Shown: in pieces, positions 20,925 through 24,727 of the stretch
How the letters are laid out: every line of letters starts with the position of its first letter
How positions within the stretch are numbered: position 1 is the first letter of the stretch
From: Candidatus Thalassarchaeum sp.
GTDB taxonomy: Archaea > Thermoplasmatota > Poseidoniia > Poseidoniales > Thalassarchaeaceae
NCBI GenBank assembly: GCA_016777225.1
Contig: JADHRW010000003.1
Location: 1-64,000 of the forward strand
Length of the DNA: 64,000 nucleotides
Reading direction: 5' to 3'
Position numbers and translations under genes: made by a program
The notes under the pieces: generated by a model
Seen by the model: the letters and a program-made list of their open reading frames with translations, nothing else
Databases searched by the model: none
What the model was told of the DNA's origin: nothing

Positions 20925-21089
20925 ATGCCTAAAATTAGTTTAGACATCCCCTCAGAGTTATTGAGTGATCTGAAAACACATGTTGGAGATAAAAAGAAAT
21001 TTATCTCAGTAGCAGATGCAGTAAGGACTGCATGTAGAAAAATGTTAGATCAATTAGATACCATTGATGAATTTCATGGAAGGAGATGA
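20925..21089 (+). CDS. Small ribbon-helix-helix (CopG/MetJ-type) protein, likely regulator of the preQ0 operon
   Basis: 54 residues from the ATG at 20925; a TTG at 20907 gives a longer form. The N-terminus PKISLDIPSELLSDLK is the strand and first helix of a ribbon-helix-helix fold, and SVADAVRTACRKMLDQL gives the second helix. Such short RHH proteins are dimeric DNA-binding repressors. The stop codon lies inside the folE ribosome binding site (GGAAGGAG), so it is the first gene of the folE-queE-queC-queD operon. Autoregulation through the inverted repeat just upstream is inferred from position. Confidence 0.72.
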   Translation: MPKISLDIPSELLSDLKTHVGDKKKFISVADAVRTACRKMLDQLDTIDEFHGRR

Positions 21090-21093
21090 TTTG

Positions 21094-21678
21094 ATGAGTA
21101 ACATACCAGATAAAAAGGATGCACAGAATGCAATAGAGACGTTGGTAAGATATATAGAAAACATCGATGGACCACTGAGAGAGGGGCTTTTGGACACTCC
21201 AAAAAGAGTAATAGATGCATATGAGGAACTTTATCAAGGTTATACTATTGATGCTGATAATCTATTAGATGCTACATTTAATGCGGAAGGTTATGATGGC
21301 ATAGTACTATTGAGAGATATTGAGTTTCACTCTACGTGTGAACATCATATGCTACCTTTTACAGGATCGGCTCATGTTGCTTACATTCCAGTAGAGAAGA
21401 TAGTAGGGATCAGTAAGTTGGCTAGATTAGTTGAATTACACGCGCTTAGATTACAAAATCAGGAAAGAATAACGAAATCAATAGCTGATGATTTAGAGAG
21501 AGTTTTACAGCCTCTAGGATGTGCAGTCATAATAGAAGCTAAACATGGTTGTATGCAGTGTCGAGGCGTAAAGAAACAGAATTCTGTAATGACTACAAGC
21601 ACTATGAAAGGTGTTTTCTTTGATAATTCAGAAGCAAGAATAGAATTATTGCAATTGATTAATAATAAATTGAATTAA
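21094..21678 (+). CDS. folE: GTP cyclohydrolase I (type IA)
   Basis: 194 residues from the ATG at 21094, preceded by GGAAGGAG. It converts GTP to 7,8-dihydroneopterin triphosphate, the entry to 7-deazaguanine synthesis here. Zinc and catalytic residues are in the expected segments: FHSTCEHHMLPFTGSAHVAYIP, KIVGISKLARL, RLQNQERIT and GCMQCRGVKKQNS. Many archaea use the unrelated MptA for this step, so a type IA enzyme is notable. It sits with queE, queC and queD, so its product most likely goes to preQ0 rather than folate. Confidence 0.95.
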   Translation: MSNIPDKKDAQNAIETLVRYIENIDGPLREGLLDTPKRVIDAYEELYQGYTIDADNLLDATFNAEGYDGIVLLRDIEFHSTCEHHMLPFTGSAHVAYIPVEKIVGISKLARLVELHALRLQNQERITKSIADDLERVLQPLGCAVIIEAKHGCMQCRGVKKQNSVMTTSTMKGVFFDNSEARIELLQLINNKLN

Positions 21679-21691
21679 TGAAGGGGATATT

Positions 21692-22321
21692 ATGGCCATA
21701 CTTAATCAGAATATGGATCTAGAAAAGTTATATCCAATAGTAGAAATTTTTCATAGCGTTCAAGGTGAAGGTTATCATTCAGGAATGCCATCAATTTTCA
21801 TTAGATTTGGAAGTTGTAATCTAAGATGCGCATGGTGTGATACAGATTTTGATATTTGGAAAGATATGAGTATAGGGGAAATTGTTAATGAATTATCAAA
21901 ATATGATTGTGATAGAATAATATTAACTGGCGGAGAACCTGCATTACAAGATTTGGTGACGCTCTCTGCCTGTTTGAAACCATTAGGGTATTATCTTAGT
22001 ATAGAAACTAATGGAACTATAATAATACCTTCTGGAATTATTGATTGGATTTGTGTTAGCCCTAAGGATCAAGAATATGCAAATTTAAAAATTAGACAGA
22101 GAATTGGTGATGAATTAAAAGTTGTTTATTTAGGTCAGGATTTATCGATGTATGATGAATTGAAAGAAGGGTTTGAACATTTATTCTTGCAACCACTTTA
22201 CGATGAAGGTCAAAATACTGAGTGGAACGGAATGAGTTTTCATAGTACTTTTGAAAAGGTAAGAAATAACCCAGAATGGCGATTATCCCTACAAACACAC
22301 AAATGGATGGGTGTAGAATGA
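21692..22321 (+). CDS. queE: 7-carboxy-7-deazaguanine synthase (radical SAM)
   Basis: 209 residues. QueE rearranges 6-carboxy-5,6,7,8-tetrahydropterin to 7-carboxy-7-deazaguanine. The radical SAM cluster motif is CNLRCAWCDT (CxxxCxxC variant spaced as in QueE), preceded by HSVQGEGYHSGMPSIFIRFG, a QueE signature. LTGGEPALQ and the LSIETNGT segment follow. It starts 13 bases after folE with a GAAGGGG site, and its stop overlaps the queC start as ATGA. Confidence 0.95.
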   Translation: MAILNQNMDLEKLYPIVEIFHSVQGEGYHSGMPSIFIRFGSCNLRCAWCDTDFDIWKDMSIGEIVNELSKYDCDRIILTGGEPALQDLVTLSACLKPLGYYLSIETNGTIIIPSGIIDWICVSPKDQEYANLKIRQRIGDELKVVYLGQDLSMYDELKEGFEHLFLQPLYDEGQNTEWNGMSFHSTFEKVRNNPEWRLSLQTHKWMGVE

Positions 22322-23466
22322 AAAGAGCTGTGATGGCTCTAAGTGGAGGAATGGACTCTACAAGTTTGCTCATACACCTATTAAATCAAGAATATTTTGT
22401 CGATTGTGTTTCATTCAAGTATGGACAAAAACATATTATTGAGATAGAAAAGGCATCGGAGAATATTATTTATCTTAAGAATAAAGGGTTTACAGTTAAT
22501 CATGAAATAGTAGATTTGACCTCTGCAATGTCAATATTTCATTCAGCACTAACAACAGATGAAATGGAAATTCCAGAAGGACATTATGAAGAAGAGCAAA
22601 TGAAAGCCACTGTAGTGCCTAATAGAAATGCAATTTTTTCCTCAATAATCTATGGTCATGCACTGTCAATAGTTTCAAGAGAAAAAAAAGATGTTAAGAT
22701 TGCTTTGGGCGTCCATAGTGGAGACCATGCAATTTATCCAGATTGTAGACCTGAATTTTATGAAAGTTTGGAGCAATCATTTAGAATAGGTAATTGGGAT
22801 TCTGAAAAAGTTGAATTTTTATTACCATATATCGATGATGATAAATCCTCTATCCTACTAGATGCATTATTATGCTGTGATGAGTTAGAATTAGATTTCG
22901 ATACTATATTTTCCAATACTATCACTTCATATAACCCTGATTCAGAAGGTAGAAGTTCAGGTAAGACAGGTTCGGATATTGAACGAATATTAGCATTCAA
23001 AGAAATAGGAAGAATAGATCCGATTGATTATGTAGAATCATGGGAGATAGTACTTGAAAATGCAATCTCTACAGAATTAAAATATAAAGATGAATATTAC
23101 AAAGAAAAATTAACCGATATACAATATAATGTGACTAGGAATAGTTCTACAGAATATCCTTTTTCGGGTGAATTATGGGATGAAAAACGATTTGGTAAAT
23201 ACACATGTATTTGTTGTGGTCATTTATTATTCACATCTGAAATGAAGTTCGACTCAGGATGTGGATGGCCATCGTTTCATTCAGAACATGATGAAGCAAG
23301 TATCAAACAAATAGAAGATAGAACTCATGGGATGAATCGAGTCGAAGTTAAATGTTCTAAATGTGACGCACATTTAGGACACATCTTTAATGATGGACCG
23401 ATGAAATATGGCGGCGAAAGATATTGTATTAATTCAGCATCAATGGGTTTTGAGGAGAGAGAATAA
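22318..23466 (+). CDS. queC: QueC-like 7-deazaguanine amide/nitrile synthase fused to methionine-R-sulfoxide reductase (MsrB)
   Basis: 382 residues in one frame. Residues 1-250 are QueC: PP-loop SGGMDS (9-14), VPNRNAIF (100-107), GVHSGDHAIYPDCRPEF (131-147). QueC normally ends with a four-cysteine zinc site; here the aligned positions are Ser204, Ser214, Thr217 and Asp220, within an otherwise conserved frame ending ERILAFKEIG-DPIDY. Residues 262-382 are a complete MsrB: zinc pairs C297/C300 and C346/C349, GCGWPSF, AHLGHIFNDGP, and catalytic Cys370 in RYCINS. The start at 22318 overlaps the queE stop (ATGA), and queD follows. QueC makes preQ0 from CDG; MsrB repairs oxidised methionine. Why they are joined is not known. 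Confidence 0.9.
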   Translation: MKRAVMALSGGMDSTSLLIHLLNQEYFVDCVSFKYGQKHIIEIEKASENIIYLKNKGFTVNHEIVDLTSAMSIFHSALTTDEMEIPEGHYEEEQMKATVVPNRNAIFSSIIYGHALSIVSREKKDVKIALGVHSGDHAIYPDCRPEFYESLEQSFRIGNWDSEKVEFLLPYIDDDKSSILLDALLCCDELELDFDTIFSNTITSYNPDSEGRSSGKTGSDIERILAFKEIGRIDPIDYVESWEIVLENAISTELKYKDEYYKEKLTDIQYNVTRNSSTEYPFSGELWDEKRFGKYTCICCGHLLFTSEMKFDSGCGWPSFHSEHDEASIKQIEDRTHGMNRVEVKCSKCDAHLGHIFNDGPMKYGGERYCINSASMGFEERE

Positions 23467-23918
23467 TGGTTACCATAATTAGAAGGTTTGTAGAAACTGA
23501 TACAGGACATAGAGTTCCAAATCATAAGAGTAAATGCCGTCATATGCATGGACATAGATACCGGTGGGAGGCAGAAATCGAAGGAGACGTTGTTGAAGAA
23601 GAGGGAGTTTCAGATCAAGGAATGTTAATGGATTTCTCTGATATATCTAAGATACTAGAAGTGTATATTCATGATGTAGTTGATCATTCTTTTATCGTTT
23701 ATGAGAAAGATCATGAAGCGTTGAAGGCACTATCAATGATGAGCGATGGACATAGAACTTTTGTTGTACCGTTTATACCTACAGCTGAAAATTTGGCTAA
23801 GTGGGCTTATGAACAAATCGAATCAAAAATTACATCAAAATATGGGCAAAAATTACGACTAGTTGCTTTTCATGTTAGAGAAACTCCGAAATCATGGGCG
23901 ACTTGGAAAGTGAACTAA
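23466..23918 (+). CDS. queD: 6-carboxytetrahydropterin synthase
   Basis: 150 residues of the PTPS-like fold. QueD converts dihydroneopterin triphosphate to 6-carboxytetrahydropterin, the substrate of QueE. Zinc-binding histidines are in TGHRVPNHKSKCRHMHGHRYR with the catalytic Cys just before HMHGH, and DVVDHSFIV, PTAENLAKW and RETPKSWATW complete the active site. The ATG shares one base with the queC-msrB stop. It is the last gene of the operon and overlaps the convergent trmJ by 4 bases. The tRNA-guanine transglycosylase that would use the product is not in the window. Confidence 0.94.
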   Translation: MVTIIRRFVETDTGHRVPNHKSKCRHMHGHRYRWEAEIEGDVVEEEGVSDQGMLMDFSDISKILEVYIHDVVDHSFIVYEKDHEALKALSMMSDGHRTFVVPFIPTAENLAKWAYEQIESKITSKYGQKLRLVAFHVRETPKSWATWKVN

Positions 23919-24727
23919 TCGTTTTTACTATTACTAGAAATTATTTCTTCCCATATTTCAGGATTCTCAGAGAAGTATTCAAATGCTAAGTTAGTAGTCT
24001 GAATCACACCTAATAATCTATGAATCTCGTCATCTTTAGGTAAACCTCGAAGAATTACTCTTTGTAATGTTTCGTCAATTCCACTTCTTCTGAAATCAAT
24101 AGTTGGTATCGATTCTGATAATCTATGAATTTCATTTCTTAAAACATTCTTTAATTCAGCAGAAAGAAGTTTTTCATTTTGAGAATCTTCAGAAAAAGTA
24201 TTGTTTCTATACCATGAATAGCAAATAACTGAAACTGCATGACTTAAATTCATTATAGGATATCCAGGCCATGTAGGAATAGTGACTAATAAATCACAAA
24301 TTTTTAATTCGGCATTGAGTAGACCTTTTCCTTCAGGACCAAATACAATTGAAATATTTCCTTCGGTATTACTAAGTTGTTTGGGGAGATCTTCTGGTTC
24401 AAGAAAATGTCGGAAAGAAATTTTACTACCATGCTCCCTTTTACCAGAAGTACCAATTACAATACTTGAATCGGAAACAGCAGATTGAATATTATCAAAG
24501 AATTTAGCATCATCTAATACAGATTGGGCATGCTTAGCTCTATTTCTTACTTCATCTGACCATTCATTATCTCTACCGACAACTCTGAGATCTGTGAAGC
24601 CAAAGTTTTTCATTGAGCGAGCTACTGCACCAATATTTCCATCAAATTGTGGCCTGACTAGAACAATCGATACCCTTTTTGTATAAAAAGGAGGGGGGAC
24701 ATCAAGCATTTCGCCCATCTGAATCAA
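23915..24727 (-). CDS. trmJ: TrmJ-like SPOUT tRNA/rRNA 2'-O-methyltransferase
   Basis: 270 residues. The N-terminal 165 residues form a SpoU/SPOUT domain with LVRPQFDGNIGAVARSMKNFG, IVFGPEGKGLLNAEL and the knot motif YPIMNLSHAVSVI, all of which contact S-adenosylmethionine. TrmJ methylates the ribose at position 32 of tRNA. The C-terminal 90 residues are helical, as in TrmJ. The gene is 33 bases downstream of eS17 and may belong to the same transcript as the ribosomal proteins. The exact target nucleotide is inferred. Confidence 0.9.
   Translation of the reverse strand: MIQMGEMLDVPPPFYTKRVSIVLVRPQFDGNIGAVARSMKNFGFTDLRVVGRDNEWSDEVRNRAKHAQSVLDDAKFFDNIQSAVSDSSIVIGTSGKREHGSKISFRHFLEPEDLPKQLSNTEGNISIVFGPEGKGLLNAELKICDLLVTIPTWPGYPIMNLSHAVSVICYSWYRNNTFSEDSQNEKLLSAELKNVLRNEIHRLSESIPTIDFRRSGIDETLQRVILRGLPKDDEIHRLLGVIQTTNLAFEYFSENPEIWEEIISSNSKND

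Follow-up and report, generated by a model that had tools for sequence, protein, structure and literature searches.

In Poseidoniia, abundant archaea of the ocean surface, the enzyme expected to supply a tRNA-modification precursor lacks the usual QueC zinc cysteines and is often fused to the sole MsrB methionine-repair enzyme. By sequence comparison, loss of the zinc site is a trait of a QueC subfamily, which MsrB would have joined afterwards as a separate step. The reading that we consider probable is that of a bifunctional protein, in which a zinc-free QueC would make preQ0 for archaeosine while the MsrB half carries out ordinary repair, the two having been joined through loss of an overlapping queC stop codon. 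Neither this zinc-less group of QueCs nor its distribution in viruses was found described in earlier work.

The queC-msrB gene and its operon

The window (the whole stretch of DNA analysed, 64,000 nucleotides) belongs to a draft genome of Candidatus Thalassarchaeum sp. (17 contigs, 87% complete) and contains the gene order folE-queE-queC-msrB-queD, all on the forward strand and with queC and msrB in a single open frame of 382 residues. The features are as follows:

21064..21678, + strand: folE, GTP cyclohydrolase I, the operon's first gene (PF01227, E 1.8e-64; TIGR00063 above cut-off; start uncertain, with several ATGs just inside)
21692..22321, + strand: queE, 7-carboxy-7-deazaguanine synthase, radical SAM (PF04055; top NCBIfam match is a QueE model, under its cut-off; position kept across related loci)
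22318..23466, + strand: queC-msrB fusion gene, 382 aa (4-nt overlap, ATGA, with the queE stop)
22324..23007, + strand: QueC (PP-loop) domain, residues 3-230 (PF06508, E 1.2e-40; PDB fold matches 2pg3 and 3bl5)
22924..22986, + strand: former zinc loop, residues 203-223 (TSYNPDSEGRSSGKTGSDIER), with Ser204, Ser214, Thr217 and Asp220 in place of the four Cys and Tyr205 kept
23008..23109, + strand: inter-domain stretch, residues 231-264 (AlphaFold2: mostly one predicted helix, 242-264)
23110..23454, + strand: MsrB (SelR) domain, residues 265-379 (PF01641, E 1.4e-47; top PDB fold matches are MsrB structures)
23466..23918, + strand: queD, 6-carboxytetrahydropterin synthase (PF01242, E 9.7e-28; TIGR03367 81 bits against a cut-off of 89)

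The queD gene starts at the last position of the queC-msrB frame. A preliminary description of this DNA had proposed that one 382-codon frame joins QueC to a full MsrB, with its zinc pairs and Cys370, inside a folE-queE-queC-queD operon; reading frame, Pfam matches, residues and flanking genes all agree with it. The FolE encoded at 21064-21678 is of the bacterial type, whereas MptA is the usual first enzyme in archaea (PMC5485725). Beyond queD, and convergent with it, lies a reverse-strand gene (23915-24727) that reads by eye as a SpoU-type RNA methyltransferase; most Poseidoniia loci have a homologue of it next after their que operon.

In the QueC half the ATP loop SGGMDS (residues 9-14, pattern SGGxDS) is present, with S9-S14 invariant, and the motifs YGQKHxxE (35-42), VPNRN (100-104) and YPDC (140-143) are kept together with the conserved lysine (K176). 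Tyr205, which corresponds to E. coli Tyr189 and adjoins the first zinc ligand, is likewise kept and is invariant in the aligned relatives; across 51 of these, nearly all positions of the non-zinc QueC signature are invariant. Residues Y35, R99, Y131 and Y189 of E. coli QueC are essential according to a 2026 survey of PF06508 (PMC13329287), and the matching residues are present here. The C(x)8CxxCxxC zinc site is absent, with S/S/T/D in its place, and the domain scores below the equivalog cut-off (TIGR00364, 128.1 against 150.3 bits); for these two reasons the protein is filed as a zinc-free QueC and not as a canonical one. It most likely works like QueC. The MsrB half contains two CxxC zinc pairs (C297/C300 and C346/C349), C315 and the catalytic C370 in RYCxNS, and scores above its cut-off (TIGR00357, 169.2 against 113 bits). 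Structure prediction, which had been proposed as a check, gave a single confident fold (AlphaFold2, mean pLDDT 92.3, pTM 0.84) resembling known QueC and MsrB structures in a PDB fold search; confidence was high along the whole chain, the former zinc loop included (block means of 89-92 over residues 201-220).

The zinc loop in archaea, viruses and bacteria

A profile scan found PF06508 matches, the weak ones of which may be GMP synthase, in 330 of 340 genomes of the class. Altogether, 84 QueC loci were fetched by score and genus, with the zinc motif not used for choice, and 83 of them held que-locus QueCs. At the zinc-ligand positions these 83 read S/S/S/D (69), S/S/T/D (6) or close variants (8); the first cysteine alone was left in one protein, and two or more were left in none. 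The zinc site was missing in all 83, fused and unfused alike, while sequences examined from the remaining phylum had the usual QueC cysteines. The 84th locus, in genome G016 (L169 4709-5419), encodes a canonical Cys-bearing QueC on a GC-rich contig with no que neighbours; it is the only canonical one found in the class and probably reflects contamination or transfer, lying outside the Poseidoniia lineage. Separately, a Poseidoniia-like que operon was seen in a MAG named Rhodobiaceae (L326 1889-2698), probably as a result of binning contamination.

The loop was aligned, residue by residue, with Cys-bearing viral relatives of 52-55% identity: TCYNPNSNGESCGKCGSCQER (L187) aligns with TSYNPDSEGRSSGKTGSDIER, and the ligand positions fall on Ser204, Ser214, Thr217 and Asp220, exactly as the preliminary description had named them. 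The QueC half is predicted from this to be metal-free. The same description had tied the loss of the site to the fusion; both loss and fusion stand, but not as a single event, because unfused Poseidoniia, viral and a few bacterial QueCs lack the site too, which also rules out the fusion as a cause or correlate of the loss. A saving of zinc is an unlikely reason, since the same polypeptide retains the MsrB zinc pairs.

Among the matches listed, the closest QueCs outside the class came from virus contigs, and a pattern scan of virus contigs found a relative encoded in at least 593 stretches (593 of the 600 matches listed). The best 80 of these at least 593 were sorted by loop into three groups: group A, with the archaeal-type zinc-less loop; group B, with a second zinc-less loop (TSYKP...SDYKSASSVER); and group C (L185-L187), in which the same frame carries all four cysteines. 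A large marine group of viral sequences (contigs L188-L253, and L171 4992-5873) carried another zinc-less loop than the archaeal one, TSYKP...SDYKSASSVERIEAF, and included the cultured Flavobacterium phage immuto, the QueC loop of which resembles that of group B. In a tree with canonical outgroups, in which bacteria were sampled in part only, group C was basal and the zinc-less members all formed one group (95/93), with Poseidoniia placed among group A and the viral contig L176 beside or inside Poseidoniia. This topology fits a zinc site that was lost once, in a lineage of viruses or mobile elements, before the gene entered archaea, the direction being the one we infer. Transfer of the whole operon between viruses and archaea is unsupported, because viral-contig QueE, FolE and QueD are mostly 26-52% identical to the archaeal proteins while group A QueC reaches about 60% identity. 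Genes resembling TGT/DpdA were observed near zinc-less viral QueCs (L174 32-1096, L182 6234-7220), which suggests that the DNA of such viruses may contain deazaguanine.

In bacteria, zinc-less QueC was found in at least two Planctomycetales MAGs and at least one bacterium TMED6 (L274 545-1387, L324 5123-5929, L300 3763-4557); both Planctomycetales copies lie near a similar regulator gene, and the QueC of L324 retains the first cysteine. Such proteins are rare: in one order (147 genomes) and in one phylum (100 genomes), no genome but the starting one scored alike. The cyanophage Pan1 of Pseudanabaena (L262 801-1634) has Ala/Thr and other residues at the zinc cysteines of a QueC whose context is canonical-like; since this sequence context is a different one, the site has probably been lost more than once. 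The MsrB fusion was absent both from the viral QueCs (best 80 of at least 593) and from the zinc-less bacterial QueCs among the matches listed.

MsrB at the que locus and the history of the fusion

A search for the same architecture in other Poseidoniia, as the preliminary description had advised, recovered the fusion in 36 of the 83 loci, in two families of the class. In 24 loci msrB stood on its own between queC and queD (one of them, L081, from tblastn only), and in 23 no MsrB was seen (two of them cut by contig ends). In a third family msrB is separate, and none was found beside the QueCs examined there. All 36 fused copies had all four MsrB cysteine motifs. The operon position of msrB is kept also where the genes are separate, and the separate gene usually overlaps queC by 4 nt, starting 4 nt before the end of the queC stop, so that loss of the stop together with a small frame change would yield the fusion. 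In 55 of 55 genomes (those with both coordinates listed) this was the sole MsrB, 70-153 bp from QueC.

Of 30 genomes, 22 had both MsrA and MsrB and 5 had neither (Fisher p 0.0008, uncorrected for relatedness), and genomes without msrB in the que locus (G280, G281, G297 and G192) were also without MsrA; such joint presence and absence is what ordinary repair by MsrA and MsrB would show. A quick QueC tree had required 10 changes, as if several independent fusions had occurred; this was dropped, as neither the MsrB tree (AU p 0.56) nor the QueC tree (AU p 0.26) rejects a single origin of the fused form. The two halves have partly different histories: the MsrB tree unites the short-linker type of MsrB in a single group, but on the QueC tree a single clade for it was rejected (AU p 0.0013). 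This suggests that the fused gene has recombined or been transferred. As a point against the bifunctional reading, it could also mean that the junction serves a function and has not persisted by chance.

Likely function and relation to known systems

The genome encodes a single TGT, whose TGT_C2 and PUA domains identify it as ArcTGT; a TGT was present in 29 of 30 relatives, as was ArcS-type DUF5591, and the profile search gave no QueF above cut-off. ArcTGT inserts preQ0, and ArcS works on preQ0-tRNA (PMC5485725), so the product expected of the QueC half is preQ0 for archaeosine. No second, canonical QueC that could take over was found in the genome, since its other PF06508 match, short and weak, reads by sequence as GMP synthase. 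In the bifunctional reading, the zinc-free QueC half would convert CDG to preQ0 with ATP and ammonia, and this preQ0 would pass through ArcTGT and then ArcS into archaeosine in tRNA. The Ser/Ser/Thr/Asp loop may hold the shape that zinc gives in other QueCs, with the essential tyrosine still beside the first ligand position. The MsrB half, as the partner of MsrA, would repair methionine-R-sulfoxide in the ordinary way, its gene having already stood between queC and queD when the overlapping stop was lost.

A closer tie between the halves, in which MsrB repairs or redox-regulates QueC in cis, with oxidation of Met12 blocking ATP binding until MsrB reverses it, is rather unlikely. Neither Met12, which lies within the SGGMDS loop, nor Met95 varies among 51 relatives, and the constant adjacency of msrB to queC, the fusion in two families and the operon position kept even by the separate gene would all suit such a tie; both methionines are, however, equally invariant in viral and archaeal QueCs without MsrB, several Poseidoniia without any MsrB retain the same QueC, and the presence of MsrB follows that of MsrA, as for general repair. 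A broader scenario, in which Poseidoniia exchanged the zinc QueC of their phylum for a zinc-free one of marine-virus origin as the base of the archaeosine pathway, and some lineages then made it self-protecting by fusion to an MsrB that undoes the oxidation of the invariant ATP-loop residue Met12, seems to us very unlikely.

Highly improbable, too, is that zinc loss altered the product, whether by halting the reaction at the amide ADG, which the preliminary description had allowed for, or by turning the enzyme to ligation of deazaguanine to protein, as in Cap9/QatC. All four cysteines are present in the QueC of Campylobacter phage CP220, whose DNA presumably carries ADG, and zinc loss therefore does not mark ADG synthesis; preQ0 is needed by both ArcTGT and ArcS, and the only QueC found here would have to provide it, which leaves ADG unsupported as a product. 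Conserved residues do replace the zinc site, zinc-less relatives occur in viruses, in some cases close to DpdA-like genes, and dADG occurs in phage DNA (PMC8306585); the protein ligases Cap9 and QatC nevertheless retain their zinc cysteines (PMC13329287, PMC13279940), so zinc loss is not a mark of ligase function either. The draft state of the genome might suggest a frameshift, a misassembly or a degenerate pseudogene, an explanation of practically negligible probability: the same fused frame recurs in many independent genomes among the separately fetched loci and in three records without a MAG label (L298, L329 and L342), the catalytic residues of both halves are conserved, and the predicted fold is single and confident.

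The zinc-free QueC has a wider meaning for the role of the metal. Zinc has so far been treated as a defining feature of QueC, and in the 2026 survey the zinc motif is what sets canonical QueC apart, with no mention, in its available part, of MsrB or of a zinc-less group of canonical type (PMC13329287); yet QueCs with the catalytic motifs and without the zinc site occur throughout an archaeal class and in many marine viruses. As zinc-bearing and zinc-free members are more than 50% identical, the role of the metal can be tested directly by comparing them. The distribution also suggests exchange of a tRNA-modification gene between viruses able to use deazaguanines in DNA and very abundant ocean archaea.

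The fusion protein shares with canonical QueC (PF06508 cluster 1; B. subtilis 3BL5, Pectobacterium 2PG3) the fold, the ATP loop, the substrate motifs, the essential Tyr and an operon with queE and queD, and differs in lacking the zinc ligands, in having extra conserved segments and in scoring below the TIGR00364 cut-off. The viral QueCs among the matches listed (marine contigs, Flavobacterium phage immuto) are 41-68% identical to it, with the same loop in group A and another zinc-less loop in group B, but have no MsrB fusion and sometimes lie beside DpdA-like transglycosylases. GAT-QueC (PMC5485725, PMC6884629) is also a QueC fusion of the archaeosine pathway; its partner, however, is a glutamine amidotransferase that takes a direct part in that pathway, and the Pfam search found no such domain in the fusion protein. 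Cap9 and QatC, which act in protein deazaguanylation, have a QueC-like fold (9nto was among the fold matches), but they belong to defence operons, and QatC is without the QueC substrate motifs (PMC13329287, PMC13279940); no defence operon genes (CD-NTase, qatA/qatB/qatD) lie beside queC-msrB, which is flanked by folE, queE and queD.

The preliminary description knew of no described QueC-MsrB fusion, and nominally this holds, the literature search for QueC named together with MsrB having found nothing relevant. The architecture itself has probably been seen before, in the archaeal 'AANH-MSRB' protein (UniProt A0A2D6JNB0) of a 2018 review of archaeal Msr enzymes, which describes an N-terminal adenylation-type domain followed by a C-terminal MsrB, as here, and calls the protein ThiI-like, of unknown substrate, rather than QueC, with no mention, in its available part, of a missing zinc site (PMC6211008). 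The positions reported for its cysteines, 162, 334 and 389, match 143, 315 and 370 of the fusion protein at a constant offset of +19; the two very probably belong to the same family, and the 'unknown substrate' protein of 2018 has thereby probably been given an identity.
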